64,000 bases of DNA from Modestobacter italicus (GTDB lineage Bacteria > Actinomycetota > Actinomycetes > Mycobacteriales > Geodermatophilaceae). The stretch lies in NCBI RefSeq assembly GCF_000306785.1, contig NC_017955.1:4154001-4218000 (forward strand), read 5' to 3'. A model generated the notes under the pieces. It was not told the DNA's origin. It did not search any database and saw nothing but the letters and a program-made list of their open reading frames with translations. Position 1 is the first letter of the stretch, and every line of letters starts with the position of its first letter. Shown piece by piece: positions 6,704 through 23,080 of this stretch. Both the position numbers and the translations under genes were made by a program.

Positions 6704-7354
6704 ATGACCGACGTCGAGACCCGGGCGCCCGCGCGGTCGCCGCGCCGCGCCGCCGCCGTCCCGCCGGCCGACAAGGTGGCCGCCCGTCGCAGCGAGCTGG
6801 CCGCCGCCGCGCTGAAGACGCTGTCCGAGCTGGGCTACGCGCGCACCAGCCTGCGCGAGATCGCGCAGAACTCGGAGTTCTCGCACGGCGTCCTGCACTA
6901 CTACTTCCGCGACAAGGTCGACCTGATCACCCACTGCGTGCGGGAGTACAACGCGCAGTGCGTCACCCGGTACGACACCGTGGTCGCCACCGCCGCGACG
7001 GCCGAGGAGCTGGCGGCGGGGTTCCTGGGCAAGCTCGGCGAGACCCTCGTCGAGGACGCCGCGCTGCACCGGCTCTGGTACGACCTGCGCGGCCAGTCGA
7101 TGTTCGAGTCCGGCTTCCGCGACGACGTGGCCGCGATCGACCGCAGCCTCGAGCGGATGGTCTGGCGGATCGTCAGCCGCTACGCCGAGCTCACCGGCAG
7201 CACCCCGCTGCCCGGCCCGGCGACGCTGTACGCCGTCCTGGACGGGCTGTTCCAGCAGGCGCTGCTCCGCCAGCTCGCCGGCGACCCGACGGCCGCCGAC
7301 GGCCTGCGGACGGCGGTCGGCGAGCTGCTCCCCACCCTCCTCCGCCCCGCCTGA
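6704..7354 (+). CDS. TetR family transcriptional regulator
   Basis: A 216-residue regulator. The ATG at 6704 follows GAGGAGG. Residues about 28-75 form the HTH, with RRSELAAAALKTLSELGY, TSLREIAQNSEFSHGVLHYYF as recognition region and DKVDLI after it. The C-terminal part is helical and diverse as usual for ligand-binding TetR domains. It is divergent from the SDR/acyl-CoA synthetase operon and probably controls it and itself through the palindromes at 6611-6647. The ligand is unknown; an acyl-CoA is a reasonable guess from the operon content. Confidence 0.88.
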   Translation: MTDVETRAPARSPRRAAAVPPADKVAARRSELAAAALKTLSELGYARTSLREIAQNSEFSHGVLHYYFRDKVDLITHCVREYNAQCVTRYDTVVATAATAEELAAGFLGKLGETLVEDAALHRLWYDLRGQSMFESGFRDDVAAIDRSLERMVWRIVSRYAELTGSTPLPGPATLYAVLDGLFQQALLRQLAGDPTAADGLRTAVGELLPTLLRPA

Positions 7355-7357
7355 CCC

Positions 7358-7414
7358 CCACCGAAAGCGCCCTTTCGGCGGACCGTCGTCCCACCTAGAG
7401 CGCGCCTTTGGCGG
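7358..7414. repeat. Two tandem intergenic palindromic elements, copies 3 and 4
   Basis: 7358-7381 (CCACCGAAAGCGC then CCTTTCGGCGG) and 7391-7414 (CCACCTAGAGCGCGCCTTTGGCGG) are two members of the GGCGCGCC-core family, directly after the TetR stop. They probably form a double terminator before the kinase gene. Confidence 0.55.
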
Positions 7415-7536
7415 ACGACGCGGCGCGCCCGGAGGCATCGGGGGTGGTCCCGGCCCTGTGCCGACCGGCTGCTTGGTGGGATGGTGGGGGACGTCGCCCC
7501 GCACCCGGGGGAGGTCGACCAGCGGGGGGAGCTGAG

Positions 7537-9105
7537 TTGGAACCGAACGGCCGACTCCTCGGCGGGCGCTACGAACTCACCGCGCTCATCGCCACGGGTG
7601 GCATGGGGCAGGTGTGGCAGGGCCGCGACACGGTGCTCAACCGGGACGTCGCGGTGAAGGTGCTCCGCGACGAGTACACCGGCGACCCGACCTTCCTGGC
7701 CCGCTTCCGCGCCGAGGCGCAGCTGGCGGCGGGGCTGGTGCACCCGAACATCGCCACGCTGTTCGACTACGGCGAGGTCGCCCCGGCCGACCCGCGCGGA
7801 GAGCACCTGGCCTACCTGGTGATGGAGCTGGTGCGCGGCGAGTCGCTGTCCGCGCTGCTCCGCCGCCAGCGCCGGCTGCCGCCCGAGCGCACCCTGGCGA
7901 TCCTGCGGCAGAGCGCCGCCGGGCTGGCCGCCGCGCACGCCGCCGGCGTGGTGCACCGCGACGTCAAACCGGGCAACGTGCTGCTCGGCAACGACGGCTC
8001 GGTCAAGATCACCGACTTCGGCGTCGCCGTCTCCGCCGCCAGCGTGCCGCTCACCCGCACCGGCCAGGTCATCGGCACCGCGCACTACCTCTCCCCCGAG
8101 CAGGCCCAGGGCCACCGCGCGTCCGCGGCCAGCGACGTCTACGCCCTCGGGGTGGTCGGCTACGAGTGCCTCTCCGGACACCGCGCCTTCGACGCGGAGA
8201 GCTCGGTGCAGGTCGCGCTGATGCACATCCGGGACAACCCCGAGCCGCTGCCGGACGACGTCCCCGCGCCGGTGCGCGCGCTGGTCGAGGCGGCCATGGT
8301 CAAGGACCCGGCCGACCGGTTCCCCGACGGCGCCGCCTTCCGCGACGCGATCGACCAGGTCATGGCCGGCCGGGGCTTCTCCGGCCCGGTCGCCGCCGCC
8401 GGCCCGGCCGCCACCACCGTGATGCCGGTGGTGGCCGCGCCGACCGCCGAGTTCCCGGCCACTCAGCCGCGCGGCGCCTGGAGCAGCGAAGCCGCGCAGG
8501 ACTGGAGCCCGGAACCGGCCGAGGAGGACCGCGAGGACTCCCGCCGGCGGCGCCTGCTCGTGCCGCTGCTCGCACTGCTCGTGGTCGCCGCCGTCGCCCT
8601 CGGCGGGTGGCAGATGCTCACCAGCGGCGGGGACGACGACCGGACGGCGACCGCGCCGACCACCTCGGCGACGAGCAGCGCCCCGACCTCCAGCGCCCCC
8701 GCGCAGCCCACCGTGCAGCTGGTCGACCTCACCTCGACCGACTACGTCGGGCGCCCCGTGGGCGACGTCCAGGCAGAGCTGACCGGGCGCGGGCTGGTCG
8801 TCACGCTGGCCGCCCAGGAGACCAGCGACGTCGCCGACGGGCTGGTCACCGGGGTCACCCCGGACGGCCCGCTCACCCCCAACAGCCCGGTGACCGTCAG
8901 CTACGCCGTCGCCCCGCCGCCCCCGCCACCGACGCCCACCCCGACGCCGACCCCGACCGTCGAGGACCCCGGCGCGGACGAGTCCGAGCCGGCGGAGACC
9001 GAGCCCGAGGAGACCGAGCCGGAGCAGCAGCTCCCGGGCGACGGCAACGGGGACGGGAACGGCTGGGGCAACGGGCGCGGCAACGGCCGCGGCGGCAACG
9101 GCTGA
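7537..9105 (+). CDS. PknB-type serine/threonine protein kinase with one PASTA domain
   Basis: A 522-residue membrane kinase. The TTG at 7537, seven bases after a GGGGGA motif, starts right before the kinase domain, and no better start is seen upstream. Kinase domain residues about 11-270: glycine loop ATGGMGQVW, Lys41 in VAVKVL, catalytic HRDVKPGN with Asp142, DFG with Asp160, and HYLSPEQ. A linker leads to RRRR and one transmembrane helix (about 340-360). Outside is a Thr/Ser/Pro linker, a single PASTA-like domain (about 395-460, YVGRPVGDVQAELTGRGL), a Pro-Thr run, an acidic stretch and a Gly/Asn-rich tail. It probably senses muropeptide or wall state. It lies just upstream of the second excalibur-sortase pair, 116 bases away. 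Confidence 0.92.
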   Translation: MEPNGRLLGGRYELTALIATGGMGQVWQGRDTVLNRDVAVKVLRDEYTGDPTFLARFRAEAQLAAGLVHPNIATLFDYGEVAPADPRGEHLAYLVMELVRGESLSALLRRQRRLPPERTLAILRQSAAGLAAAHAAGVVHRDVKPGNVLLGNDGSVKITDFGVAVSAASVPLTRTGQVIGTAHYLSPEQAQGHRASAASDVYALGVVGYECLSGHRAFDAESSVQVALMHIRDNPEPLPDDVPAPVRALVEAAMVKDPADRFPDGAAFRDAIDQVMAGRGFSGPVAAAGPAATTVMPVVAAPTAEFPATQPRGAWSSEAAQDWSPEPAEEDREDSRRRRLLVPLLALLVVAAVALGGWQMLTSGGDDDRTATAPTTSATSSAPTSSAPAQPTVQLVDLTSTDYVGRPVGDVQAELTGRGLVVTLAAQETSDVADGLVTGVTPDGPLTPNSPVTVSYAVAPPPPPPTPTPTPTPTVEDPGADESEPAETEPEETEPEQQLPGDGNGDGNGWGNGRGNGRGGNG

Positions 9106-9221
9106 CCCGACCGAGGTCACGACACGGTCGCGGTCCCCACCCGACACGCCGGTCACTCCTGTCACGGACGGTGGCGTCTCGATAACGTCCGGCGCTTCAC
9201 CGCCGTCCTCGAGGAGCACCC

Positions 9222-9614
9222 ATGCGCCTGCCGCGCGCCGCAGCCGTCGTCGTCCTGACCGCCGCCGTCTCGCTGCCCCTCACCGGCACCGCCTCGGCCG
9301 TCGACCTGGACTGCGCCGACTTCCCGAACCAGGGGGCCGCGCAGGTGGTCCTCGACGCGGACCCGGCCGACCCGAACGGGCTGGACTCCAACGGCAACGG
9401 CGTCGCCTGCGAGGCCTACGGCTACACGTCGGTCGCGAGCACCGCCGGCCAGGTCGCGGTGCAGCCGACCGGCGGGGTCGCCGCGGGCGACGGCAGCTCG
9501 GCCGGTCAGGTGGCCGGCGGGAGCGGCAGCCCGCTGCCCTACGTCGCCGGTGGGCTGGCGTTCGCCGCCGCCGGTGGCGCCGCGCTGGCCGCCCGCCGGG
9601 CGTCCCGCGGCTGA
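9222..9614 (+). CDS. Secreted excalibur calcium-binding protein with LPYVAGG sorting-like C terminus (cassette 2)
   Basis: A 130-residue paralogue of the protein at 983. The ATG follows GAGGAGC. It has a signal peptide ending in ASA (about residue 26) and an excalibur domain with DLDCADF and the Ca2+ loop DSNGNGVACEA. A linker shares TAGQVAVQP.GGVAAGDGSS with copy 1. The end reads PLPYVAGG followed by LAFAAAGGAALAARRAS. The sorting-like part is more conserved between the two copies than the linker, which fits recognition by a dedicated sortase. The sortase gene starts 4 bases after this stop codon, so the two are co-transcribed here without the hairpin seen in cassette 1. Confidence 0.88.
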   Translation: MRLPRAAAVVVLTAAVSLPLTGTASAVDLDCADFPNQGAAQVVLDADPADPNGLDSNGNGVACEAYGYTSVASTAGQVAVQPTGGVAAGDGSSAGQVAGGSGSPLPYVAGGLAFAAAGGAALAARRASRG

Positions 9615-9618
9615 CCCG

Positions 9619-10296
9619 GTGTCCCGCCGCACGGCCCGCCGCCCCCTTGCCGCTCGCGTCTGGACGGCGACGGCGGTGCTGCTGTCCGCGGTGGGGGTGG
9701 CCGCGGTGTGCCTGCTGCCGGCGGGCGGGTCCGCGCCGGTCACCGTCGCCGGCGCGCTGGTGACCGTGGACGTCGACGCCCTGGAACCCGCGCCGCTGCG
9801 GGCCGGCGCGCGGGTGGCGATACCCGCGCCGGTCGTGCCGGTGACGCTGCCGCGCAGCGCGCCGGTGCGGGTGACCATCCCGGAGCTGGGGGTGCGCAGC
9901 GCGGTGATGGCGCTCGGGATCGGCGAGGACGGCGCGATGGAGGTGCCGCCCGGCGCCTACCCGGCCGGCTGGTTCGACCGCGGCCCGACGCCCGGCGAGC
10001 TCGGACCGGCGGTGCTGGCCGGGCACGTCGACTGGGACGGCGAGACCGGCGTCTTCGGGGGCCTGCACCGGCTGCACCGCGGCGACCGGGTGCTCGTCGA
10101 CCGCGCCGACGGCAGCACCGCGACCTTCGCCGTCGACCGGGTGGCGCAGTACGCCAAGGACGAGTTCCCGGCCGGGTCGGTCTACGGCGACATCGACGAG
10201 GCGGGGCTGCGGCTGATCACCTGCGGCGGCGACTTCGACACCGACGCCGACAGCTACCAGGACAACGTCGTCGTCTACGCCTCGCTGGTGCCCTGA
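9619..10296 (+). CDS. Class F sortase (cassette 2)
   Basis: A 225-residue membrane-anchored sortase. The GTG at 9619 gives a short Arg-rich cytoplasmic end (SRRTARRPLAARVW) and one membrane segment; earlier in-frame starts would lie inside the excalibur gene. The catalytic domain starts at about APVRVTIPELGV; GHVDW carries the catalytic His and LITCGG the Cys. The last strand reads YQDNVVVYA, and again no Arg follows the Cys. Compared with copy 1 it lacks the long Pro-rich N terminus. Likely substrate: the excalibur protein immediately upstream. Transcription ends at the large hairpin 10303-10364. Confidence 0.87.
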   Translation: MSRRTARRPLAARVWTATAVLLSAVGVAAVCLLPAGGSAPVTVAGALVTVDVDALEPAPLRAGARVAIPAPVVPVTLPRSAPVRVTIPELGVRSAVMALGIGEDGAMEVPPGAYPAGWFDRGPTPGELGPAVLAGHVDWDGETGVFGGLHRLHRGDRVLVDRADGSTATFAVDRVAQYAKDEFPAGSVYGDIDEAGLRLITCGGDFDTDADSYQDNVVVYASLVP

Positions 10297-10302
10297 TCAC
10301 CC

Positions 10303-10364
10303 AGGCATAGGAAGCTGTGCACCCGGTCCGCGCGCGCAGACCGGGTGCAGAGCTTCCTATGCCT
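10303..10364. terminator. Large hairpin, 26-bp arms, after sortase 2
   Basis: The arms 10303-10328 and 10339-10364 are inverted complements with a single mismatch and a 10-base loop of alternating C and G. It begins 6 bases after the sortase stop. It is far longer than a normal terminator stem and is followed 3 bases later by a run of 24 C. It may be a terminator, or a remnant of a palindromic mobile sequence. Confidence 0.7.
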
Positions 10365-10367
10365 GTG

Positions 10368-10391
10368 CCCCCCCCCCCCCCCCCCCCCCCC
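10368..10391. repeat. 24-base poly-C homopolymer
   Basis: An uninterrupted run of 24 C lies between the large hairpin and the ribosome binding site (AGGAG, 10402-10406) of the hydantoinase gene. Such a tract is prone to slipped-strand length change and to assembly error. It lies in the 5' leader, 22 bases before the start codon, so a change in length would alter promoter or leader spacing rather than the reading frame. Confidence 0.8.
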
Positions 10392-10413
10392 GCCCCACCT
10401 CAGGAGCGCATCG

Positions 10414-11796
10414 ATGAAGGCCGACCTGGTCGTCCGCGGCGGCGACGTCGTGCTCGAGGGCGCCGCGGTGCGCGCCGACGTGGCGGTCACCGGCGGGGTG
10501 GTCACCGCGATCACCCGCGAGCCGGTCGACGCCGCCACGGTCGTCGACGCCACCGGCTGCCTGGTGCTGCCCGGCGGCGTCGACGCGCACGTGCACCTCT
10601 CCGGTGGCGGTGGGCCGGAGGGGGCCCCGACCTGGGCCGACGACTGGGAGAGCGGCACCCGGGCGGCCGCGGCCGGCGGGGTCACCACGGTCGGCAACAT
10701 GACCGTCCCGCGGGAGGGCGAGTCGCTGACCGACGCCGTCCGACGGGTGGGCGCCGACGTGGCCGCGCAGTCGCTGGTCGACGTGCTGCTGCACCCGGTG
10801 GTCGCCGGCGAGCAGCACCTCGACCCGGCGCAACTGGCCGTGCTGCGCGAGCTCGGCCAGACCAGCATCAAGGTGTTCACCGTCATCGACGCGTACTCCG
10901 CGCACCGGCAGCGCTTCTACGCGTTCATGGCCGAGGCCGGGCGGCAGGGCTTCCTGACCGTCGTGCACTGCGAGGACGCCGAGCTCATCGGGTGGTCCAC
11001 CGCGCACCTGGCGGAGCAGGGCCGGGCGGACTTCCGCGCCTACGGGGAGAGCCGGCCCGACACCGCCGAGGAGGCCGCGGTCGCCCAGCTGATCGCCTTC
11101 GCCGAGACCTCGGGGACGCCGGTCTACGTCGTCCACCTGTCCAGCGCCCGGGCGCTGGCGGCCTGCGCGGCGGCCCGGTCCCGCGGCGTGCCGGTGTACG
11201 TGGAGACCCGGCCGCTGTACCTGCACCTCACCGAGGAGCTGCTGCAGGCAGAGGACGGCGCGAAGTACATCGGCCAGCCGCCGCTGCGCCGGGCCGCGGA
11301 CGTCGACGCGCTCTGGGCCGGCCTGCGGTTCGGCACCGTCGACACGGTGGCCACCGACCACGCCCCGTGGACGCTGGCGGAGAAGCTCGCCGCCGGCGAC
11401 CAGCTCGACGAGCTGCGCCCCGGGGTCGCGGACCTGGAGACCGTCCGGCCGATGCTGTTCTCCGCCGGCGTGCTCACCGGCCGGATCTCGCTGGCCCGGT
11501 TCGTCGAGCTCACCGCCACCAACCCGGCGCGGCTGTTCGGCGTGTACCCGCGCAAGGGCGTGATCGCGCCGGGCTCGGACGCCGACCTGGTGGTCTGGGA
11601 CCCGGCCGAGACGCGGGTGGTCGACGGCAGCCGGATGCAGAGCCGGGCCGGCTACTCCCCCTACGACGGCACGGTGGTCACCGGCTGGCCGCGCGAGGTG
11701 CTCAGCCGCGGCGAGCTCGTCGTCTCCGGCGGCGCGGTCGTGGCCGGCCCGGGCCGCGGGCAGCTGCTGCAGCGGGGGCTGACCGCCCCGCGCTGA
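10414..11796 (+). CDS. Dihydropyrimidinase/hydantoinase-type amidohydrolase
   Basis: A 460-residue cyclic amidohydrolase. The ATG follows AGGAG; the frame is open further upstream only as poly-Pro encoded by the C run. Metal and catalytic motifs: DAHVHL after the first strand, SIKVFTV with the Lys that is carboxylated to bridge two metals, HCED, VVHLSS, and DHAPW with the final Asp. It opens rings such as hydantoins, dihydropyrimidines, allantoin or related ureides; the exact substrate is not readable. It originally stood tail-to-tail with the XRE-cupin regulator now at 16590, as shown by the direct repeats at 11781 and 16570. It thus probably belongs to the nitrogen/peptide region at 16.6-34.8 kb. 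Confidence 0.88.
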   Translation: MKADLVVRGGDVVLEGAAVRADVAVTGGVVTAITREPVDAATVVDATGCLVLPGGVDAHVHLSGGGGPEGAPTWADDWESGTRAAAAGGVTTVGNMTVPREGESLTDAVRRVGADVAAQSLVDVLLHPVVAGEQHLDPAQLAVLRELGQTSIKVFTVIDAYSAHRQRFYAFMAEAGRQGFLTVVHCEDAELIGWSTAHLAEQGRADFRAYGESRPDTAEEAAVAQLIAFAETSGTPVYVVHLSSARALAACAAARSRGVPVYVETRPLYLHLTEELLQAEDGAKYIGQPPLRRAADVDALWAGLRFGTVDTVATDHAPWTLAEKLAAGDQLDELRPGVADLETVRPMLFSAGVLTGRISLARFVELTATNPARLFGVYPRKGVIAPGSDADLVVWDPAETRVVDGSRMQSRAGYSPYDGTVVTGWPREVLSRGELVVSGGAVVAGPGRGQLLQRGLTAPR

Positions 11797-11833
11797 GCCG
11801 TCAGGACGACGGCGGCGACATCGCCCCGATCAG
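11781..11833. repeat. Left 53-bp direct repeat flanking the two-component/MMPL insert
   Basis: It matches 16570-16622 at 51 of 53 bases. It contains the true end of the hydantoinase gene (LTAPR and its TGA), then a short piece that reads on the minus strand as LIGAMSPPSS-stop, a copy of the C terminus of the XRE regulator. The stop codon of the response regulator (11830-11832) is provided by this repeat. Confidence 0.85.
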
Positions 11834-12492
11834 GCGGGCTGGATGCCTGCGCGGACGGCCATGCCGACCAGTTGGCCGCGGTCCCGTGCGCCGACCTTGG
11901 TCATGGCCCGGTTGGCGTGGGTCTTGACGGTGAACGGGGAGAGGAACAACCGCTCAGCGATCTCGGCGTTGTCCAGCCCGGAGACGATCGCGGTGACGAC
12001 CTCCCGCTCGCGCGGTGTGAGGTCGGCGAAGCGGGCGGTCAGCTCGGGGTCCAGGTCCACCGCTCGCTGCTGCACGACGTGATCGACCACGGCGCTGACC
12101 GCGGTCGGTGACAGCGCTCGGCTGCCCGCGGCGACCGCCAGGATCGCCCCGGTGAGCTCGGTGGGTCCGGCGCCCTTGCTGAGGAACCCGTCGGCGCCGG
12201 CGCGCAGCGCGCGCAGCACGTTCTCGTCCTGGTCGAAGGTGGTGAGCACCAGGATGCGCAGCTGCTCAGGAGAGTGGGTGAGCCGGATGCGGCGGGTGGC
12301 CTCCACGCCGTCGATGCCGGGCATCCGGATGTCCATGAGGACGACGTCGGGCCGGACGTCGTCCACCTGCCGGAGCACGGCCAGCCCGTCACCGGCCTCG
12401 GCCACCACCTCCAGGTCGGCATGGGCGCCGATGATCGAGCGCAGCCCCACCCGGATCATCTCCTGGTCGTCGACCAGCATCACGCGGATCAC
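11830..12492 (-). CDS. NarL/LuxR-type response regulator (module 1)
   Basis: A 220-residue response regulator. The receiver domain has VDDQE acid residues, phospho-acceptor Asp54 in VVLMDIRMPG, Thr in LVLTTF and Lys in LSKGA. The LuxR-type HTH is at about 155-215 (LTPREREVVTAIVSGLDNAEIAERLFLSPFTVKTH). Its ATG overlaps the stop of the sensor kinase gene by ATGA, so the pair is one operon. Its last codon falls at the edge of the 53-bp direct repeat. It probably binds the TACTGCG-NN-CGCAGTA palindromes at 13945 and 14150 to control the divergent MMPL exporter. Confidence 0.92.
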   Translation of the reverse strand: MIRVMLVDDQEMIRVGLRSIIGAHADLEVVAEAGDGLAVLRQVDDVRPDVVLMDIRMPGIDGVEATRRIRLTHSPEQLRILVLTTFDQDENVLRALRAGADGFLSKGAGPTELTGAILAVAAGSRALSPTAVSAVVDHVVQQRAVDLDPELTARFADLTPREREVVTAIVSGLDNAEIAERLFLSPFTVKTHANRAMTKVGARDRGQLVGMAVRAGIQPA

Positions 12493-13667
12493 CGCAGGAC
12501 CTCCTCGATGACGGGCAGTGCCGCTCGGAGCCGGAACACGCCGCTGTCGGTCGACACCTCGAGCCGCCCGCCGGCAGCGGCGGCCCGCTCCCGCATGCCG
12601 ATGAGCCCCTGGCCCACCCGGTCGACGTCCGGGGCCGGCGATGCGACGTCGTTGACCGCCTCGACGGTCACGGCGGATCCGGTCGCCTGGATCGTCAGCC
12701 GCACCTGCCCGCGTCCGTACCTCTGGGCGTTGGTCAACGCCTCCTGGGTGATCCGGTAGGCGGCCGCACTGGTCTGCGGCGGGAGCTCGCGGGACAGGTC
12801 GCCGATGCAGGCGTCCACGTCCATGCCCGCGGCACGGACCTTGTCCACCAGGTCAGGGATGTCGTGGTGGCTGGCGACCGGCCCCGGCGGTGCACCGCCC
12901 GAGCCGGTGTGCAGCACCTCCAGGATCTCCTGGGTCTCCGCCAGCAGCGACTTCACGCTGCCGCGCGCTGCGAGCAGGTGTTCGCGGGCCGCCGCGGCTG
13001 TGGCCGGCAGGTTCACCTCGGCGGCGCCCAGGTGCATGCCCATCACGGCTATCTCGTGTCCGAGGGTGTCGTGCAGGTCGTGGGCGATGCGCAGCCGCTC
13101 CTCGGCGACGCTGCGCTGGACAGCGGCGTCCCGTCCGGCGATCGCCTCGTGGGTGCGTTCCTGCAGTGCCGCCCAGTACTGCTGCTGACCGCGGACCGCG
13201 CTGCCGGCGACGGCGGCGGCGATCGCGGTCGTGCCGGCGATCCAGGCGATCGGGTCGTCGAAGCCGAAGGTCCCCGCGGCAACACCCATGGCCAGGAAGT
13301 CAGCCGCGCCGATGACCACCGCGCACGAGATCCCGGACAGCCCGCGCAGGCAGAGCAGGAACGCTCCGAACATCGACACCTGCCACATCACGATGGGGTC
13401 GACACCGACGAAGCCGGCGACCAGCGGTCCGGCGGCCAGGAGACCCAGACCCGCCACGGGCCGGCGATGGCCCAGGAGCACCCCCGCAGCGCTCACCGAC
13501 AACGCCAGCAACGCACCCACCGGGTGGGCGCTGGAGGGCGCCGTCGCCACACCGGCGGTCACGGTGGCGGCGATGACGACCGGGGTGGCCCTCTCCAGCA
13601 GTCGCGGCCTGCGCATCCACAGCGGCGGGGCGGGCAGCTCCGGCAGCCGGGCGGGGAACCTCGTCAC
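12489..13667 (-). CDS. NarL-group sensor histidine kinase (module 1)
   Basis: A 392-residue membrane sensor kinase. A GTG at 13667 (or 13670) follows GAGGA; upstream in-frame starts give an Arg/Asp-rich stretch with no sign of coding conservation. The N-terminal half has about five or six hydrophobic segments with short loops, so the signal is probably felt in the membrane. The dimerisation and phosphorylation motif RIAHDLHDTLGHE carries His196. The HATPase_c part contains ITQEALTNAQRYG (N box) and GQGLIGMRERAAAAGG (G box). Translationally coupled to the response regulator. The ligand may be a membrane-active compound, since the module encodes an MMPL exporter (inference). Confidence 0.9.
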   Translation of the reverse strand: MTRFPARLPELPAPPLWMRRPRLLERATPVVIAATVTAGVATAPSSAHPVGALLALSVSAAGVLLGHRRPVAGLGLLAAGPLVAGFVGVDPIVMWQVSMFGAFLLCLRGLSGISCAVVIGAADFLAMGVAAGTFGFDDPIAWIAGTTAIAAAVAGSAVRGQQQYWAALQERTHEAIAGRDAAVQRSVAEERLRIAHDLHDTLGHEIAVMGMHLGAAEVNLPATAAAAREHLLAARGSVKSLLAETQEILEVLHTGSGGAPPGPVASHHDIPDLVDKVRAAGMDVDACIGDLSRELPPQTSAAAYRITQEALTNAQRYGRGQVRLTIQATGSAVTVEAVNDVASPAPDVDRVGQGLIGMRERAAAAGGRLEVSTDSGVFRLRAALPVIEEVLR

Positions 13668-13944
13668 CACGTCATCCTCACACCGGTCCACTGGCCTGGA
13701 CCGTCCATGCGGTGGTCCTGCACAGGCTCGACGGGCATCTCGCGTCCGGTCCTCCCCATCGGTCGGGCAGCGGTCATCGGCCTGAGCCGCCTGTCCGCAG
13801 CAGCCGCGGTCACGAGGACCGGCCACCCGCGGTGCGTCGATCGACCGAGGCGAACGCCGGTCGCGAGCGCACCGGCCCGAGTGCTGCTCACAGCCTCCCG
13901 GCTGGGACCACGGCCCGTCGTCATCCCGGCGGACCGGGTCCGGC

Positions 13945-13960
13945 TACTGCGCTCGCAGTA
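13945..13960. promoter_or_regulatory. TACTGCG-CT-CGCAGTA palindrome, putative response-regulator site
   Basis: An exact 7-2-7 inverted repeat in the middle of the divergent region of module 1. The same form with one C-to-G change per arm (TACTCCG-CC-CGGAGTA) lies upstream of the second MMPL exporter. NarL-type regulators bind short inverted repeats of this size as dimers. Confidence 0.5.
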
Positions 13961-14149
13961 CGACACGTGATCGAGAAGACCGGACACCACTGCTGTCTCG
14001 ACCGGGACGGGAGCCCGACAGGGTCCACACGAGATGCGGCCACCGGTGGTCAGGACCAGCCGGCCGGACCGTGCGCCGACGACAGATCGGACCAGACCGA
14101 CCACGACGCGCCGGTCTCACCCGAGCTGGCCGGGGCCGGCCGACGCACG

Positions 14150-14165
14150 TACTGCGGACGCAGCA
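14150..14165. promoter_or_regulatory. TACTGCG-GA-CGCAGCA near-palindrome, second putative site
   Basis: It matches the 13945 site except for the spacer and one end base. Its centre is about 96 bases before the MMPL start codon, close to the 85-base distance of the related site in module 2. Confidence 0.45.
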
Positions 14166-14253
14166 GGAGAAGTCGATCTCGCCAGACGATTCCACCGCAG
14201 CGACGCCGCAGAAGTCTTGGGGACGACCCGCTCCCCAGCCAGAGAAGGAATCC

Positions 14254-16452
14254 ATGTCCACGTTCTTGTCCCGTGTGGGGCGTCTCAGCGCCCGGTTCCG
14301 ATGGGCGGTGGTCGGTGCCTGGATCGTCGTCTTCGCCGCGTTCATCGGCGTCCTCGTGGTGGGGAGCAGCGGCGATCCTGCGGGCGACGCAGAGGTGTCG
14401 ATCCCCGAGTCGCAGGCGTCGCTGGCACTGGAACGGCTGGACGTGGAGTTCCCGGCCGCCCCCGACACCGGTGCGGACCTGCAGCTGGTGTTCCATCCCG
14501 CCGCCGGTGACGTCACGGACCCGGCCGTCGCGCAGGAGATCGCCGGGGTCATCACCCAGGCCCAGGACCTGCCGGGCGTGCAGGCGGTCAGTGACCCCCT
14601 CGATCCGGCCAGCCCCTACCTCGCCCCCGACGGCACCCTCGCCGTCGCGACGCTCACCTACGGTGAGCTGACCGAGGACCAGCAGGTCGAGTTCTACGAC
14701 GCCGCACTCGCGCTGCAGGAGAACGCTCCCCCGACGTTGGGGACCGAGCTCGGCGGCAACCTCGTCCCCTTCGGGGCTCCGGAGCAGGGAGCCGGCGAGG
14801 CCGTCGGGGTGATCGTGGCGTTCCTCGTGCTGGCCCTGACCTTCGGCTCCCTGGTCACGGCCGGGGTGAACCTGCTGATCGCGGCGTTCGGCGTCGGCGT
14901 CGGGCTCGTCGGCGTGCTGGCCTACGGCTCACTGACCCCCATCGACGGGAACAGCATCGTCCTCACCGCGATGCTCGGCCTGGCCGTCGGGATCGACTAC
15001 AGCCTCTTCATCCTCTTCCGGTTCCGGAACGAGCTCCGCGCCGGGCGGACCGTCGATGACGCCATCGCCCGCGCCACGGGAACCGCCGGTACGGCTGTCG
15101 TCTTCGCCGGCCTCACCGTCATCGTCGCCCTCGCCGCCTTCATGGTCGCGGGCCTGAGCTTCATCACCCAGATGGGCCTCGCCGGCGCCTTCGGCGTCCT
15201 CATCGCGGTCCTCCTGGCACTGACGCTGCTGCCTGCGGTGATGCGGTTCCTCGGGATGCGCGCCCTGTCCAAGAAGCACCGGAAGGCCATCGCCCGGGGC
15301 GAGCTGTGGAACGAGGAGCAGTCCCAGCGGCGCGGGATCATGAGCCGCTGGGGCGGCTTCGTCGTCGAGCGGCCGCTCATCGCCCTGGTCGGCGGGGTGC
15401 TCGTGATGATCGTGATGGCCGTGCCGCTGCTGAGCATGAAGACCGCGTTCAGCGTGCCCGGCGGCGCCGACCCGACGTCGACCGAACGCACGGCCTACGA
15501 CCTCATCGTCGATGAGTTCGGCGGCATCCAGAGCCCGCTGATCGTGCTCGCCGAGGGCGACCAGGTCGCCACCCAGGCCGCCACCGTCCAGACCCAGCTC
15601 ACCGGACTCACCGGTGTGCAGAGCGTGGCCCCGGCAGAGATCAGTGCCGACGGTGACACCGCCCGCCTCATCGTGATCCCCTCCGGCGGGCCGATCGACG
15701 ACTCCACCGAGGACCTGGTCCACCAGATCCGCGACAACGCCGACAGCGTGTCCGGTGTGCACCTGGAGGTCACCGGCGAGACCGCGATCGGGATCGATCA
15801 GGACGCGCAGCTCATGTCCGCGCTGATCAAGTACGTCATCGTGATCGTGGTCATCTCGATCATCCTGCTGATCGTGCTCTTCCGGTCACTGCTGATCCCG
15901 GTGATCGCCACGCTGGGGTTCCTGCTGTCGGTCGGCGCGTCCTTCGGCGCCAGCGTGGCCGTGTTCCAGTGGGGCTGGCTCGACCCGCTCATCGCCGCCC
16001 CGCAGGGCGACCCGATGCTGAGCCTGCTCCCCCTGCTGCTGGTCGGCGTCCTGTTCGGCCTGGCCATGGACTACCAGGTCTTCCTCGTCTCCCGGATCCA
16101 GGAGATGTACCGCACGGGCGTGGACTCCAGGACCGCCATCCGCGAGGGCTTCGGGCGGTCCGCCCCGGTGCTCGTCGCCGCTGCATCGATCATGGTCGTC
16201 GTCTTCGCCGGCTTCGCGACCAGTTCCTTCGCGGTCGGCGCCTCCATCGCCTTCGGCCTGATGGTCGGTGTGGCCGCTGACGCCTTCATCGTCCGGATGG
16301 TGCTGATGCCGGCCCTGCTGTCCCTGCTCGGCAGGTCCGCGTGGTGGATCCCCCGCTGGCTGGACGAGATCATCCCCGACGTCGACGTCGAGGGACACTC
16401 ACTGGACAGCCACGAGCCCGAGCCGACCAGGCAGCCGGCGATGGCCAGCTGA
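14254..16452 (+). CDS. MMPL family RND transporter (module 1)
   Basis: A 732-residue inner-membrane exporter. The ATG follows AGAAGGAA and begins with a short cytoplasmic end and a first membrane helix (WAVVGAWIVVFAAFIGVLVVG). Family layout is complete: helix 1, a large outer loop, five clustered helices with IDYSLFILFRFRNELRAG, a second outer loop, and five more helices with AMDYQVFLVSRIQEMYRTG. The Asp-Tyr pairs in both helix clusters (IDYSLF, MDYQVF) are the proton-relay positions of the family. It ends in an acidic tail. Likely exports a lipid, siderophore or membrane-active drug under control of the divergent two-component system. The same kind of module recurs at 49.4-53.4 kb. Confidence 0.92.
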   Translation: MSTFLSRVGRLSARFRWAVVGAWIVVFAAFIGVLVVGSSGDPAGDAEVSIPESQASLALERLDVEFPAAPDTGADLQLVFHPAAGDVTDPAVAQEIAGVITQAQDLPGVQAVSDPLDPASPYLAPDGTLAVATLTYGELTEDQQVEFYDAALALQENAPPTLGTELGGNLVPFGAPEQGAGEAVGVIVAFLVLALTFGSLVTAGVNLLIAAFGVGVGLVGVLAYGSLTPIDGNSIVLTAMLGLAVGIDYSLFILFRFRNELRAGRTVDDAIARATGTAGTAVVFAGLTVIVALAAFMVAGLSFITQMGLAGAFGVLIAVLLALTLLPAVMRFLGMRALSKKHRKAIARGELWNEEQSQRRGIMSRWGGFVVERPLIALVGGVLVMIVMAVPLLSMKTAFSVPGGADPTSTERTAYDLIVDEFGGIQSPLIVLAEGDQVATQAATVQTQLTGLTGVQSVAPAEISADGDTARLIVIPSGGPIDDSTEDLVHQIRDNADSVSGVHLEVTGETAIGIDQDAQLMSALIKYVIVIVVISIILLIVLFRSLLIPVIATLGFLLSVGASFGASVAVFQWGWLDPLIAAPQGDPMLSLLPLLLVGVLFGLAMDYQVFLVSRIQEMYRTGVDSRTAIREGFGRSAPVLVAAASIMVVVFAGFATSSFAVGASIAFGLMVGVAADAFIVRMVLMPALLSLLGRSAWWIPRWLDEIIPDVDVEGHSLDSHEPEPTRQPAMAS

Positions 16453-16468
16453 CTGCACGTGCACGAAG

Positions 16469-16501
16469 ACGGGGCCGCTACCGACCAGGTGGCGGCCCCG
16501 T
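16469..16501. terminator. Hairpin terminator after MMPL gene, module 1
   Basis: A 10-bp perfect stem ACGGGGCCGC / GCGGCCCCGT with a 13-base loop starts 17 bases after the stop codon. Confidence 0.7.
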
Positions 16502-16569
16502 CGGCAGCTGCACCCCGGATGAACCGGCCGAGCTCGCGGGCCACATCACGTCCTGCCCCCGGCGGGGCC

Positions 16570-16622
16570 GACCGCCCCGCGCCGAGCCGTCAGAACGACG
16601 GCGGCGACATCGCCCCGATCAG
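16570..16622. repeat. Right 53-bp direct repeat flanking the two-component/MMPL insert
   Basis: 51 of 53 bases match 11781-11833. It contains the true C terminus and stop of the XRE regulator (minus strand). Before that is a dead copy of the hydantoinase 3' end, in which the TGA stop has become CGA. The two copies show that hydantoinase and regulator were once convergent with stop codons 4 bases apart. Confidence 0.85.
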
Positions 16623-17252
16623 CTCGGCGTCCTGGTCGCGGGGGTTGTGGTACCAGTGCGGCAGGCCGGCGTCGTAGGTCAGCGAGTCGCCCTCGGTGAG
16701 CTCGTACTGGTCGCCGGCGATGGTGATCCACAGCTCGCCGCGGGTGACCATCACGCACTCCTCGCCCTCGTGCAGGAAGGGCTCGGCCTCGTTGCTCCAG
16801 CCCGCCGCGATCCGGGCCCGGATCATGCCGAGCCGGCCGTTCATGTGCGGGGTGAGCAGCTCGTAGACCAGGTTGTCCTCGGCGAGCAGCAGCCGCGGGT
16901 GCTCCCCGGCCCGGACCAGCGCGCCGGTCTTGGTCTCGCTGACGAAGAACCGGCCGACGGGGACGTCGAGCGCGTGGGCCAGCTTGATCAGCGTGGTGAA
17001 CGAGGGGTTGCCCATCCCGCGCTCGATCTGGCTGAGCAGCCCCGGGCTCAGCTCCGCCGCGGCGGCCAGCGAGGCCAGGCTCAGCCGCGCCTCGTCCCGC
17101 AGCCGGCGTACCAGCGCACCGACGGCCTGCATGGTCGGGGTGGTCTGGGCCGGCTCGCCGTTGCCGATCGCGGCCTCGACCTCGCCCGGGTCGATCGGGA
17201 ACGCCGCCCGCAGCGACCGTCCATCGGCGGCGAGTGCCGCGCCGTCATCCAC
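16590..17252 (-). CDS. XRE family regulator with C-terminal cupin domain
   Basis: A 220-residue regulator. The GTG at 17252 has a GGAGGAG eight bases upstream. The N-terminal helix-turn-helix spans about residues 45-100 (VRRLRDEARLSLASLAAAAELSPGLLSQIERGMGNPSFTTLIKLA). The C-terminal cupin (about 135-215) shows HEGEECVMVTRGELWITIAGDQYELTEGDSLTYDAGLPH, a small-molecule sensor. It is divergent from the peptide ABC operon and very likely controls it through the 22-bp palindrome at 17362-17383. PuuR-like XRE-cupin regulators commonly govern amine and amino-acid use, which fits the neighbourhood. Its last codons are duplicated at the left insert boundary. Confidence 0.9.
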   Translation of the reverse strand: MDDGAALAADGRSLRAAFPIDPGEVEAAIGNGEPAQTTPTMQAVGALVRRLRDEARLSLASLAAAAELSPGLLSQIERGMGNPSFTTLIKLAHALDVPVGRFFVSETKTGALVRAGEHPRLLLAEDNLVYELLTPHMNGRLGMIRARIAAGWSNEAEPFLHEGEECVMVTRGELWITIAGDQYELTEGDSLTYDAGLPHWYHNPRDQDAELIGAMSPPSF

Positions 17253-17323
17253 GAGATGGCCTCCTCCGTACCCGGCGGGGACGCGTCCCACCGCCGGGTC
17301 ATACGAACGTTACAGACGATCCG

Positions 17324-17352
17324 TTGACATGCGGGAGAGGCATCGTCAATCT
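17324..17352 (+). promoter_or_regulatory. Promoter of the oligopeptide ABC/peptidase operon
   Basis: A perfect -35 TTGACA at 17324-17329, then a 17-base spacer and CAATCT at 17347-17352 as a weak -10. Transcription would start near 17359, just before the operator palindrome and about 145 bases before the first gene. Confidence 0.5.
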
Positions 17353-17361
17353 ATTCCCCAA

Positions 17362-17383
17362 GTCGTTCACTCAAATGAACGAC
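17362..17383. promoter_or_regulatory. Operator palindrome GTCGTTCA-N6-TGAACGAC
   Basis: An exact inverted repeat with 8-base arms and a 6-base AT-rich centre, placed at the predicted transcription start of the ABC operon. The XRE-cupin regulator encoded divergently is the likely repressor. Confidence 0.6.
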
Positions 17384-17504
17384 ACTGGTCACGGCCCCAG
17401 TCCGCCCCGGTCACTCCCCCGCCGTCCTCCCGGACGCCGCCGCCGAGAGCAAGCGGCAGCGCCCGTGATGCGGCCTGCCCGCTCGACGACGCAAGGAGCC
17501 TCTC

Positions 17505-19091
17505 ATGGCACGAAACCGTCCGCGCTCGACCCGGCTGGCGGTGGCGCTCGCCGCCACCGCCGCCCTCACCCTGTCCGCCTGCGGCGGCGGGTCGGACGGC
17601 GGCTCGGGCTCCGGCGGCAGCGCCGAGCCCGACGCCGTGTCCGACGGCGTGGTCAACATGGACCTCGCCGGCCCGGTCACCAGCTACGACCCGGCCAAGG
17701 GCAGCGGCTTCCAGGACGCCCAGGTCGCCTGGGCGCTCTACGACTCGCTGATCACCACCGACTCCGACGGCAACCAGATCGCCGGGCTCGCGTCGGACTG
17801 GAGCTCGACGGCCAACAGCGCGACCTTCACCCTCAAGCCGGACGTCACCTGCTCCGACGGCACCCCGCTCACCCCCGAGGTCGTCGCCGGCTCGCTCACC
17901 CGGCTGCTCGACCCGGCCACCGGCTACCCGTTCCTGTCCCAGACCACCGGCGGGGACAACCCGGCCACCGTCACCACCGCGGGCACCGACCAGGTCACGG
18001 TCACCCTGGAGAAGCCCTGGTCGGCGCTGCTGCCCAGCCTGGCCTCGCCGTTCACCGGCATCGTCTGCGCCGCCGGCGTCGCCGACCCGACCACGCTGCA
18101 GACCGGCTCCAACGGCACCGGCGCCTTCGTCGCCGACACCCAGGTGGCCGGCTCCAGCTACACCTTCACCCGCCGCGAGGACTACGCCTGGGGTCCGGAG
18201 TTCGCCGACCAGGGCGAGGGCGACCTGCCGACCACGCTCGTCATGCAGGTGATCACCGACGACAACACCCGGGCCAACCTGATGGAGACCAGCGCGCTGC
18301 AGATCGGCGCCTTCGGGTCCGACGCCTGGACGCGGTTCGAGAACAGCACCAGCGTCAGCAACGAGATCTCCAACCAGACCGACACCTTCCTGATCTTCAA
18401 CGAGACGCCGGGCAAGGTCACCACCGACCCGAAGGTCCGCCAGGCGATCGCCCAGGCGGTCAACCGGGAGGGGCTCAACGAGGTGCAGAGCTACGGCGCC
18501 GGTGACCTGATCACCAACCTCGGCCAGGACAGCTACCAGTGCGCCGACCCCTCGCTGGGCGACCTGATCCCCGAGTACGACGCGGCCGCGGCCGCCGAGG
18601 TGCTCAAGGGCGAGAAGCTCACCGTGATGGGCGCCAACGTCTTCGCCGGCGGTGACGGCAACAGCTACATCCTCTCCGCGCTCGAGGCCGCGGGTGTCGA
18701 CGGGACGCTGAAGAACCTGGACAACTCCGCCTACGTCGACGCCTTCTTCAGCGGCGAGAACGACTGGGACGTCGCCGTCCTGGGCTACGGCAACCTGCTC
18801 AACAGCCTGCTCGCCGCCGGTGGGTTCTTCGTCGGCGCCGCCCCGCCGGACGGCCAGAACCTGGGCGCGGTCGACAACGCCGCCGCGGCCACCGCGCTGG
18901 CTGCGGCCGGCACCGCCACCAGCGAGGACGCCGCCTGCGCGTCGACCACCGAGTTCCAGTCCGCGCTGATGGAGAACTTCGACGTCGTCCCGCTGTCCAC
19001 CGTCCCGGTGCACGTGCTCTTCGCCGGCGGTACCAGTGGTGCGGTGGTGAAGGGCTTCACCCAGCCGTCGACCATCCGGATCTCCGCGTGA
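17505..19091 (+). CDS. ABC transporter substrate-binding lipoprotein, family 5 (peptide/nickel type)
   Basis: A 528-residue solute-binding lipoprotein, ATG after AGGAG. The signal peptide ends in a lipobox with LSAC and lipidated Cys26, then a Gly/Ser-rich tether. The body has the family-5 order: DLAGPVTSYDPAKG near the start, WALYDSLI, LASDWS, the FTLKPDVTCSDGTPLTPEVV block and PKVRQAIAQAVNRE. Homologues bind di- and oligopeptides. It opens an operon of at least seven genes that continues through the permeases and ATPases to three hydrolases (17505-27138). Its stop overlaps the next gene by 4 bases. Confidence 0.92.
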   Translation: MARNRPRSTRLAVALAATAALTLSACGGGSDGGSGSGGSAEPDAVSDGVVNMDLAGPVTSYDPAKGSGFQDAQVAWALYDSLITTDSDGNQIAGLASDWSSTANSATFTLKPDVTCSDGTPLTPEVVAGSLTRLLDPATGYPFLSQTTGGDNPATVTTAGTDQVTVTLEKPWSALLPSLASPFTGIVCAAGVADPTTLQTGSNGTGAFVADTQVAGSSYTFTRREDYAWGPEFADQGEGDLPTTLVMQVITDDNTRANLMETSALQIGAFGSDAWTRFENSTSVSNEISNQTDTFLIFNETPGKVTTDPKVRQAIAQAVNREGLNEVQSYGAGDLITNLGQDSYQCADPSLGDLIPEYDAAAAAEVLKGEKLTVMGANVFAGGDGNSYILSALEAAGVDGTLKNLDNSAYVDAFFSGENDWDVAVLGYGNLLNSLLAAGGFFVGAAPPDGQNLGAVDNAAAATALAAAGTATSEDAACASTTEFQSALMENFDVVPLSTVPVHVLFAGGTSGAVVKGFTQPSTIRISA

Positions 19092-20161
19092 CCGGTCCGG
19101 AGACGGCCGTCCGCACCACCGACGCGACGGCGGGGGCGGCCGCGACCGCCCCCGCCGTCGGGCCGGGCACCGAGGTCCCGGAGACCAGCGCACCGGCCAA
19201 GCACCACGCGGCGTCCCTGTGGGCCGGCTACCTCGGCCGCCGGCTCGTCGGGGTGGCCGCCGTCCTGGTGGCGATCGTGCTGCTGACCTTCCTGATCGTC
19301 CGGTTCGTGCCGGGTGACCCGGCTCGGCTGATCGTGGGGCTGAACGCCACCCCCGCCCAGGTCGAGCAGGTCCGGGACGAGCTGGGGCTCAACGACCCGT
19401 TCTTCGTGCAGTTCGGGCACTACGTCTCCGGCCTGCTGCACGGCGACCTGGGGAACTCCTTCGTCAACCAGCAGCCGGTGAGCGAGATGATCTCCCAGCG
19501 GTTGCCGCTCACCGCGCAGCTGGCGCTGAGCGCGCTGGCCATCGTGCTGGTGCTCGGCTTCCTGTTCGGGATCGCCGCCGGCGTGCTGGACCACAACGGC
19601 CGCGGCCGCTGGTTCACCTCGCCGTTCACCGCGGTGACCTCGCTGGTCGGCGCGCTGCCGGAGTACATCACCGGCACGCTGCTGGTCTACGTCTTCGCGC
19701 TGAGCCTGCAGTGGTTCCCGGTCCAGGGCGGCCCGGGCTTCCACTCGATGTTCCTGCCGGCGCTGGCGGTCGGGCTCCCCCCGGCCGCCGTGCTGGCCCG
19801 GCTGGTCCGCAACGAGACCCTCGCCGTGCTCAACCAGGAGTACATGACGACGGCGACCAGCAAGCGGCTCTCCCGCGCCCGGCTGCTCGTCCGGCACGTC
19901 CTGCCCAACGTCGTGACCAGCACGCTCACCCTCGGTGGCCTGCTGCTGGTCGCCCTGCTCGGAGGCACCGTCATCACCGAGAACGTCTTCAACATCAGCG
20001 GCGTGGGGACCGCCGTCGTCCAGGCGATCCTGCGCAGCGACTACCCCACCGTCCAGGGCGTGATCCTCGTCCTGGGCCTGATCGCGGTGGTCATCAACCT
20101 CGCCGTCGACATCACCCTGGGCCTGCTCGACCCGCGGGTGCTCTCCCGGAGGGCCTCGTGA
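19088..20161 (+). CDS. ABC transporter permease, DppB type
   Basis: A 357-residue membrane protein from a GTG that overlaps the substrate-binding gene by GTGA. An unusually long Thr/Ala/Pro-rich cytoplasmic end of about 40 residues precedes the first helix (VGVAAVLVAIVLLTFLIVRFVPGDPARL). RFVPGDP and ARLVRNETLAVLNQEYMTTATSKRLSR are hallmarks of this family, the latter including the EAA-type loop that contacts the ATPase. Six membrane helices. It pairs with the permease half of the next gene. Confidence 0.92.
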   Translation: MTGPETAVRTTDATAGAAATAPAVGPGTEVPETSAPAKHHAASLWAGYLGRRLVGVAAVLVAIVLLTFLIVRFVPGDPARLIVGLNATPAQVEQVRDELGLNDPFFVQFGHYVSGLLHGDLGNSFVNQQPVSEMISQRLPLTAQLALSALAIVLVLGFLFGIAAGVLDHNGRGRWFTSPFTAVTSLVGALPEYITGTLLVYVFALSLQWFPVQGGPGFHSMFLPALAVGLPPAAVLARLVRNETLAVLNQEYMTTATSKRLSRARLLVRHVLPNVVTSTLTLGGLLLVALLGGTVITENVFNISGVGTAVVQAILRSDYPTVQGVILVLGLIAVVINLAVDITLGLLDPRVLSRRAS

Positions 20162-22032
20162 GCCCCCGCCGACGCCGCAAGCTGCCGGCCATGCTGGTCT
20201 GCGGCGCGAGCCTGCTCACGGTGATGGTGCTGCTGGGGATCTTCGCGCCGATCATCTGGGGCGAGCAGGCCGACGCGCTGACCGCGGACATCCGCCAGGG
20301 CAGCTCCGCGGAGCACCTGCTGGGCACCGACGCGCTCGGCCGGGACATCCTGCTGCGCACCCTGGTGGCCACCCGGCTCACCCTGCTGATGGCCGCGGGC
20401 GCGACGGCCATCGCCGTCCTGATCGGCATCCTGCTCGGCGCCGGGGTGGTGCTGGCCGGCCGGTTCGTCCGCGGCGCCGGCGCCCGGGCGATCGACCTGC
20501 TCGTCTCCTACCCGCCGATCATCATCGCGCTGGCGGTCACCGCCATCTTCACCCCGGGCGTCGGCTCGGTGGTCGTCGCGATCGGCCTGGCGTTCTGCCC
20601 GCAGTTCGCCCGGCTCACCAACACGCTGGCCAACTCGGTGAGCACCCGGCAGTACGTCGTGGTCTCCCGGCTGCTCGGCACCAGCCGGACCAAGCTGCTG
20701 CAGCGGCACGTGCTGCCCAACATCGCCGCCCCCGTGCTGGTGCTCACCTCGGTCGGCTTCGCCACCAGCATCGTGTCGCTGTCCGGGCTGAGCTTCCTGG
20801 GCCTGGGCGTGCAGCAGCCCGAGTACGACTGGGGCGCGCTGCTCGCCGCCGGCCTGCGCGACCTGTCGGTCAACCCGGTGGAGTCCCTCGGCCCGGCGCT
20901 GGCCATCCTGCTCACCGGCCTCGGTGCCGGGCTCTTCGGCGACGGCCTGGCCAAGTACTGGGAGCCGCGCCAGTCGGTGCGGCCGCCCCGGATCAACCGC
21001 TCCCGCGGCAAGCAGCTCACCGCGCCGCTGACCGCGGTCGCCTCCGACGGCGAGCGCGAGGTGGTGGCGTCGCTGCGCGAGCTGCAGGTCTCCGCCGGCG
21101 ACGCACCGCTGGTGCGCGGGGTCTCCCTCGACATCGCCGCGGGCGAGGTCGTCGGCCTGGTCGGTGAGTCCGGTTCGGGCAAGAGCGTCACCGCCATGGC
21201 GCTGGCCCGGCTGCTCAGCCCCTCGCTCAGCTGGTCGGCCGACCGGCTGCGGATCGCCGGCACCGACATGCACCGCTCCGACGTGCCTGCGCCCACCCGG
21301 CTGGCCACCGACCTCGGCGTGGTCTTCCAGGACCCGTCGAGCTGCTTCAACCCGGCGCTGCACATCGGCACCCAGCTGACCGAGGTGCTCCGGGTGCACA
21401 AGGGCGTCTCCCGCAAGGCCGCGGCGAAGCTGGCCGTCGACCGGCTGCGCGAGGTGCGGGTCTCCTCCCCCGAGGCCCGGATGCACCAGTACCCGCACGA
21501 GCTCTCCGGCGGCATGCGGCAGCGGGCCATGATCGCGATGGCGCTGCTGTCCGAGCCCCGGCTGCTGGTCGCCGACGAACCGACCACCGCGCTCGACGTC
21601 ACGGTGCAGGCCGACGTGCTGCGGTTGCTCCACCAGATCAACACCGAACGCGGCACCGCGATGCTGCTCATCTCGCACGACATCAACGTCGTCTCCGCGC
21701 TCTGCGACCGGGTCTGCGTCATGTACGCCGGGCGGATCGTCGAGGAGGTCCCGGTCGCCGACCTGCGCGCCGGCCGGGTGCACCACCCGTACACCAAGGC
21801 GCTGCTGGCGGCCTCCCCCGGCGAGGACGCCGACCGGGTCACCGCACCGCTGAAGCCGCTCGCCGGCCGGCCGCCCAAGCCGGGCGAGGTCGGCAACGCC
21901 TGTTCCTTCGCGCCCCGCTGCCCGCTGGCGATGCCGCGCTGCCTCGAGGAGGACCCCGTGCTGCTGCCCGACCCCGACGGCGGCCAGGCCGCCTGCCACG
22001 CCGTCGACCACGAGCTGGCGGTGGCCCGGTGA
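20158..22032 (+). CDS. Fused ABC permease (DppC type) and ATPase (DppD type)
   Basis: A 624-residue fusion. Residues about 1-285 are a DppC-like permease with LLGTDALGRDILLRTLVATR and the SRLLGTSRTKLLQRHVLPNI loop. After a basic linker, residues about 300-610 are a peptide-type ATPase: Walker A VGESGSGKS, Q-loop VFQDPSS, signature LSGGMRQR, Walker B LLVADEPTTALD and switch LISHD. The C-terminal CSFAPRCPLAMPRC is the Cys-rich block of oligopeptide ATPases, which often binds an iron-sulfur cluster. The GTG start overlaps the previous stop by 4 bases. The frame is continuous with no stop between the halves, so the fusion is real in this sequence; such fusions are known in the family. Confidence 0.9.
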   Translation: MSPRRRRKLPAMLVCGASLLTVMVLLGIFAPIIWGEQADALTADIRQGSSAEHLLGTDALGRDILLRTLVATRLTLLMAAGATAIAVLIGILLGAGVVLAGRFVRGAGARAIDLLVSYPPIIIALAVTAIFTPGVGSVVVAIGLAFCPQFARLTNTLANSVSTRQYVVVSRLLGTSRTKLLQRHVLPNIAAPVLVLTSVGFATSIVSLSGLSFLGLGVQQPEYDWGALLAAGLRDLSVNPVESLGPALAILLTGLGAGLFGDGLAKYWEPRQSVRPPRINRSRGKQLTAPLTAVASDGEREVVASLRELQVSAGDAPLVRGVSLDIAAGEVVGLVGESGSGKSVTAMALARLLSPSLSWSADRLRIAGTDMHRSDVPAPTRLATDLGVVFQDPSSCFNPALHIGTQLTEVLRVHKGVSRKAAAKLAVDRLREVRVSSPEARMHQYPHELSGGMRQRAMIAMALLSEPRLLVADEPTTALDVTVQADVLRLLHQINTERGTAMLLISHDINVVSALCDRVCVMYAGRIVEEVPVADLRAGRVHHPYTKALLAASPGEDADRVTAPLKPLAGRPPKPGEVGNACSFAPRCPLAMPRCLEEDPVLLPDPDGGQAACHAVDHELAVAR

Positions 22033-23045: not shown

Positions 23046-23080
23046 CGCGACCACCCACCCCTCCCCGAGGAGATCGACCG

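Follow-up and report, generated by a model that had tools for sequence, protein, structure and literature searches.

Insertions flanked by a long direct duplication of their target were described in Helicobacter pylori (Nobusato, Uchiyama, Ohashi and Kobayashi 2000, Gene 259:99-108, as cited in PMC1643837 and PMC4978471, and also in PMC3154945, PMC3031569 and PMC3077401). According to these citing texts, the inserted unit often carries restriction-modification genes, is absent from a relative, and is bordered by a long direct duplication of a sequence that the relative holds once. A second point of comparison is Streptomyces ambofaciens, for which PMC5869714 reports that end joining at induced breaks produced five insertions, 30 bp to 18.8 kb long, where the breaks healed, with fill-in of 1-4 bases and captured DNA of endogenous origin. 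Here we describe a 4.7-kb insertion within a 64,000-nucleotide stretch of Modestobacter italicus (hereafter the window). The genome (G000) is one contig of 5,575,517 bp, in which the window occupies C1:4154001-4218000. The insert carries a response regulator (RR) gene and a histidine kinase (HK) gene on the minus strand and an MMPL exporter gene on the plus strand, and it separates a hydantoinase-like gene from an XRE-cupin regulator gene. As in H. pylori, the unit is missing from a relative and a long direct duplication surrounds it. However, the host is an actinobacterium and the cargo is a regulator/exporter module. The event is a further case of the described kind, to which the chimeric cargo and a proposed shared operator are new.

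Duplicated junction and empty site

The repeats at 11781-11833 and 16570-16622 agree at 51 of 53 bases, the mismatches being 11794/16583 (T/C) and 11805/16594 (G/A). They lengthen leftwards to 11775-11833 and 16564-16622 (56/59, with a third mismatch at 11780/16569) and, at the loosest, to 70 bp (62/70). The junction copies and the genes they belong to are as follows.

10414..11796, plus strand: hydantoinase / dihydropyrimidinase-like amidohydrolase, left neighbour (Pfam Amidohydro_1); its 3′ end lies within the duplicated junction
11775..11833 (strict 53 bp: 11781-11833), plus strand: left junction copy, with the live hydantoinase end and a dead XRE end; it gives the RR stop codon and is present as a single copy in the relative G014
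16564..16622 (strict 53 bp: 16570-16622), plus strand: right junction copy, with a dead hydantoinase end (TGA to CGA) and the live XRE end
16590..17291, minus strand: XRE-cupin regulator, right neighbour (HTH_3 and Cupin_2; 77% amino acid identity in G014)

Both neighbours remain whole, since the two 3′ ends are present in each copy. The left copy contains the true hydantoinase stop, TGA at 11794-11796, whereas the right copy has CGA at that position and contains the true XRE stop (TCA at 16590-16592 on the plus strand). The RR frame continues into the left repeat and ends at the repeat's TGA (TCA at 11830-11832 on the plus strand). In those RR genes of relatives that were translated by eye, the last codon is the gene's own and the stop is TAG. 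When the RR DNA was aligned with four congener relatives and with G063, four alignments began at 11834 and one at 11835, and all stopped at the repeat edge. These observations bear out the original prediction, which had claimed the 51/53 identity at the same coordinates, a true and a dead gene end in each copy, an RR stop codon taken from the repeat, and an original gap of 4 bases between the tail-to-tail genes; the gap within the repeat is indeed 4 bases.

A third copy was absent from both strands at up to 14 substitutions in the 2,001,517 bases of the genome that were scanned, and a 193-base query including the left copy, run against the whole genome in a BLAST-type search, returned both repeat places and otherwise weak matches only. 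A scan of the 2,001,517 bases for direct repeats (at least 38 bp, at least 90% identity, at most 60 kb apart) passed only 11 pairs, so a 51/53 match at one spacing is not due to chance. None of the other 10 resembles the window pair. Five are protein paralogues whose similarity extends well past the repeat (45-57% over 85-305 amino acids). Two belong to a single tandem coding repeat of 366 bp; for these the sequence was read directly, since the compared stretches overlap and protein comparison is uninformative. The remainder are a tRNA-Met pair, a tRNA-Gly att pair, and a non-paralogous repeat (4319208, 39.5 kb apart).

Of the 23 genus genomes compared, G014 alone, apart from G000, was found to carry a close relative of each neighbour. 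There, a 12.6-kb contig (C136, locus L061) carries the hydantoinase and XRE-cupin genes tail to tail, with one junction copy and without the insert. Window positions 10433-11830 and 16590-25025 match the adjoining stretches 806-2211 and 2182-10641 of the reverse complement of L061, in which the hydantoinase gene ends at 2169 and the XRE gene begins at 2182 (a gap of 12 bases). Synteny extends leftwards through a sortase gene and rightwards for 8.4 kb. The original prediction had posited a tail-to-tail ancestor and a 4.7-kb insertion that duplicated the junction, and had named an empty site in related genomes as the check. G014 supplies that site, with one target copy between the two genes, as in the insertions with long target duplication cited above; neither a module shared by all relatives nor the lack of an empty site was encountered. 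The single empty site known lies in an 80% complete draft genome. An insertion event itself is very likely.

The hydantoinase is 84% identical at the amino acid level to its G014 relative and matches the NCBIfam dihydropyrimidinase and D-hydantoinase models, both below cut-off. It is rare: hits at E <= 1e-100 were found in 3/112 family genomes, with no more than about 50% identity in one of the three, and at E <= 1e-150 samples of 298 order and 394 class genomes yielded the window's own genome only.

The G014 junction also allows changes in the repeats to be polarised. At the stop codon position G014 has T, like the left copy, so the change at 11794/16583 happened in the right copy; after the XRE stop it has A, like the right copy, so the change at 11805/16594 happened in the left. 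Each of these two safely polarised changes falls in the non-coding half of its copy, namely the dead hydantoinase half on the right and the dead XRE half on the left. At the third difference, 11780/16569, G014 aligns poorly and polarity is not safe. Fourfold sites of the two neighbour genes differ between G000 and G014 at 103/384 positions (26.8%), compared with 3/59 between the repeats (binomial P 1.8e-5 assuming no selection and an insertion dating from the split). This far lower divergence argues that the insertion is younger than the split of the two genomes, unless gene conversion has kept the copies alike. Secondary loss from G014 through recombination between the repeats is less likely, because the repeats are too similar for an insertion predating the split, again barring gene conversion.

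Ancestry of the insert and a shared palindrome

Within the insert, receiver and LuxR-type helix-turn-helix, HisKA_3 kinase and MMPL domains adjoin one another. Its genes and the hairpin behind them are listed below.

11830..12492, minus strand: NarL/LuxR-type RR, family type (Response_reg and GerE; 84-85% amino acid identity to congeners; own last codon and stop lost)
12489..13667, minus strand: HisKA_3 sensor HK, family type (start inferred from relatives; 70-72% amino acid identity to four congeners)
14254..16452, plus strand: MMPL-family RND exporter, Micrococcales type (Pfam MMPL, two stretches; 75% amino acid identity to Microbacterium rhizomatis; placed by tree)
16468..16502, plus strand: hairpin with a 15-bp stem, 3′ of the MMPL gene, a likely terminator of the insert (folded with DNA parameters)

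Judged from identities and trees, the insert is a chimera of a family-type RR and HK with a Micrococcales-type MMPL, a feature that the original prediction had missed. The RR (84-85%) and HK (70-72%) resemble those of an operon, MMPL'-HK-RR, in at least four congeners (G005, G007, G016 and G018); the corresponding values for the G063 operon are 78.6% and 66.6%. A 32-row tree of two-component systems places the window pair in the clade of these operons (100/98 and 100/100); it was built from loci with both genes close together and long enough, leaving out the short duplicates L067-L071 and L076. However, the exporter MMPL' of the congener and G063 operons is only about 34-36% identical to that of the window and lies in the same operon rather than divergently.

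The window MMPL reaches at most 48% amino acid identity with the rest of the family. MmpL3, MmpL4 and MmpL5 are relatives with solved structures. The loci compared with it were the best 80 of 300. A 99-row quick tree, based on single best segments covering >85% of the query and leaving out L066-L096, puts it within a ten-row Micrococcales clade (Shimodaira-Hasegawa-like approximate likelihood ratio test, SH-aLRT, 100), while 27/29 family rows form a separate clade. Of the other two, L097 (congener G009), on a long branch, sits deep at the base of the wider clade of the window MMPL, and L115 is placed elsewhere. Micrococcales modules of an MMPL and a two-component pair (L126 from Arthrobacter, L131 and L139 from Rathayibacter, L150 from Microbacterium) have exporters 67-75% identical to that of the window, and L126, L131 and L139 share its divergent layout. 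Their regulators are much more distant than those of the congeners (RR 57-62%, HK 36-45%). An MMPL sharing 44% identity with the window exporter comes from a record titled Vibrio cholerae (L194), whose assembly may be contaminated or mislabelled.

A relocation from a native site in G000 was also considered. The MCP and GtrA-like genes that flank the congener operon have best matches of 72% and 54% in G000, values like those of other paralogue classes, so no native site is identifiable. On viral contigs, three stretches fit the module pattern and none encodes a relative.

A palindrome is found in both lineages. The pattern TACTGCGNNCGCAGTA occurs exactly at 13945 and with one mismatch at 14150, giving two proposed operators.

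13944..13961, no strand: proposed operator CTACTGCGCTCGCAGTAC, on the upstream side of HK-RR, within 44 bp that match the sequence preceding MMPL' in G063 at 84% identity
14149..14166, no strand: proposed operator GTACTGCGGACGCAGCAG, beginning 105 bp before the MMPL start

At up to two mismatches the window holds 3 sites where 0.07 are expected, the third being at 53514, before a second MMPL gene. HK and RR reading frames of its own come after this second gene (51310-53436), the set spanning 49419-53529 on the minus strand; the third site, a related palindrome TACTCCGCCCGGAGTA, lies 78 bp before the MMPL start. Across MMPL loci (77/80 had enough upstream DNA), the palindrome occurs within 220 bp upstream at up to two mismatches in 13 of the 25 loci that have a two-component pair no more than 4.5 kb away and in 1 of the 52 that have none, while a reversed control pattern gives 0/25 and 0/52. 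It precedes MMPL' in the congeners and, beyond the RR, a GtrA-like gene; it is also found near MMPL' in the G063 operon, and 104-115 bp before the MMPL in L126, L131, L139 and L150. Over the 23 genomes at up to one mismatch, it is not enriched (18 sites against 15 for the reversed control), although 10 of the 18 lie at these modules by coordinates. The case for an operator therefore rests on position. A third site of this stringency in G000 (5124851) falls within an open reading frame (ORF), at its 3′ end, and is likely due to chance.

We propose from these positions that TACTGCG-NN-CGCAGTA is a shared operator, which the RR would bind before both transcription units. Moreover, the 44-bp stretch is spacer DNA (13917-13960), and we infer from it that HK-RR probably kept the operon promoter after loss of MMPL'; the MMPL carries its own upstream site. 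Published work on such a regulator/exporter module was not found in the literature searched, nor was CTACTGCG together with MMPL.

Routes of insertion

As the original prediction held, the insert contains no transposase or integrase: no Pfam mobility domain was found in its three genes, and five further ORFs in or near the spacers had no Pfam match at E 0.001. PHROGs matches of the three genes are to regulator-like or unnamed families only. Nor does an inverted repeat join the two insert ends among the 25 longest pairs listed for 9000-20000. The repeat scan, the end-joining genes of the host, the lack of a mobility gene and the published cases together favour capture of foreign DNA at a staggered break with fill-in, to which we give an even chance. 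We infer a break, fill-in, end joining, selection and operator function as follows. Opposite-strand nicks some 53-59 bases apart would leave 5′ overhangs spanning the junction of the two convergent genes. Both overhangs would be filled in and joined to an incoming 4.7-kb fragment of foreign or recombinant DNA, captured in one event, leaving one junction copy on each side. With both neighbours intact, retention of the insertion would be favoured, and the RR would bind TACTGCG-NN-CGCAGTA before both transcription units. The genome encodes Ku (C1:2028569) and a LigD polymerase-domain protein (C1:2031044), and the mixed ancestry is what a capture of joined fragments could give. S. ambofaciens is likewise an actinobacterium, with Ku and ATP-dependent ligases. 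Like the cited H. pylori units, the insert is surrounded by a long direct duplication (51/53, 56/59). It carries no restriction-modification genes (only RR, HK and MMPL), but that link is an association and not a requirement.

Several points weigh against this account. A fill-in of 53-59 bases is outside the 1-4 bases given for Streptomyces in the excerpted PMC5869714, where the captured DNA is endogenous and no 50-bp target duplication is reported. A donor with the same chimera was not found, which leaves no sequence against which microhomology at the junctions could be sought. Only one such event is seen in the scanned part of the genome, which shows no general mechanism. Taken at face value, G014 equals the right copy at 11780/16569, which would place that change in the still-coding left half. 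Finally, gene conversion between the copies would give the insertion a falsely young look.

Site-specific integration would make the 53 bp the attL and attR of a small element whose tyrosine integrase was lost or acts in trans. Integrase elements do leave traces of this kind, long direct repeats through which target genes regain their 3′ ends, and a real case exists in the same genome: a 12-kb element at C1:5176859-5188916 (L309, L310) has 48/48-bp repeats 12,010 bp apart, one copy inside tRNA-Gly, flanking accessory genes. However, that element carries Phage_integrase, TrwC relaxase, HTH_17 and Abi_2 genes, whereas no recombinase was detected by Pfam in the tested ORFs of the window insert. 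The window insert lies where two rare protein genes meet, a junction with indels in the congener and so a poor target in evolutionary terms; a conserved target such as a tRNA gene is missing, and the sequence has no further copy in the 2.0 Mb scanned. The RR frame also passes straight into the repeat, which sets the insert apart from elements that end in an att site of their own. Such integration is thus improbable. A DNA transposon or insertion sequence is opposed by the lack of a transposase and of terminal inverted repeats among the 25 longest pairs. Campbell integration, a single crossover with a circle that bore the module together with 53-59 bp homologous to the junction, has the merit of yielding one copy per side in one step. 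Such a circle would first have had to acquire the junction from a genome in which the rare hydantoinase-XRE pair occurs, and none with the module elsewhere was found. Moreover, no plasmid record holds at least 80% of 11600-17300, and the best plasmid MMPL is 49.7% identical, so we regard this route as quite unlikely.

Replication template switching, with exit at 11833, copying of the module from another molecule and re-entry 53-59 bp upstream, accommodates any duplication length without paired nicks, and successive switches could build a chimera. Yet the two strongest DNA matches to the insert genes elsewhere in the genome are only paralogues (one, an MMPL gene at 2285559, matches 67% at the DNA level over part of its length), which would require transient foreign DNA as the template. 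It can be distinguished from break capture only with the donor in hand, and we consider it unlikely. Tandem duplication is a known route to changed gene order without mobile elements. Here, a larger segment of junction and module would have been duplicated and then trimmed, which requires an earlier module near the junction and at least two exact deletions; the 12.6-kb G014 contig is without the module, and this history is very improbable. Within staggered-break capture, a more specific possibility is that one repair event joined unrelated fragments, a family-type HK/RR and a Micrococcales exporter, with a long target duplication, and that these cooperated from the start, since TACTGCG-NN-CGCAGTA serves as operator in both lineages. 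We hold this to be rather unlikely.

Window context and significance

Three other stretches of the window (25026-25889, 27121-33922 and 34548-40600) are also missing from the syntenic G014 contig, and no long flanking direct repeats surround them in the window self-comparison. To the left of the hydantoinase gene, 977-2232 and 9222-10296 each hold a pair of genes for a small secreted protein and a sortase-like protein. These pairs look like paralogues and share 67 bp of DNA, at 1317 and 9532, that is 88% identical. A 64-bp near-perfect palindrome (94%) follows at 10302-10365, with a run of C from 10368. Its 25-base arm occurs at 4 places in the 2.0 Mb scanned at up to five mismatches, each paired with its inverse about 35 bp further on, as in a dispersed palindromic element.

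Most foreign genes come without a readable scar. In this locus the empty site, both copies and their private changes are all legible, giving a dated example of gene gain, free of any mobility gene, in a bacterium that has end-joining genes. The locus also puts in concrete form the question of whether distant gene transfer is driven by end joining. The palindrome is a testable operator candidate for a widespread module undescribed in the literature searched, and it suggests a reason why parts from two lineages could function as a chimera. If a single repair event did join two such fragments, operator compatibility across families would turn random DNA capture into a source of ready-made regulated exporters.

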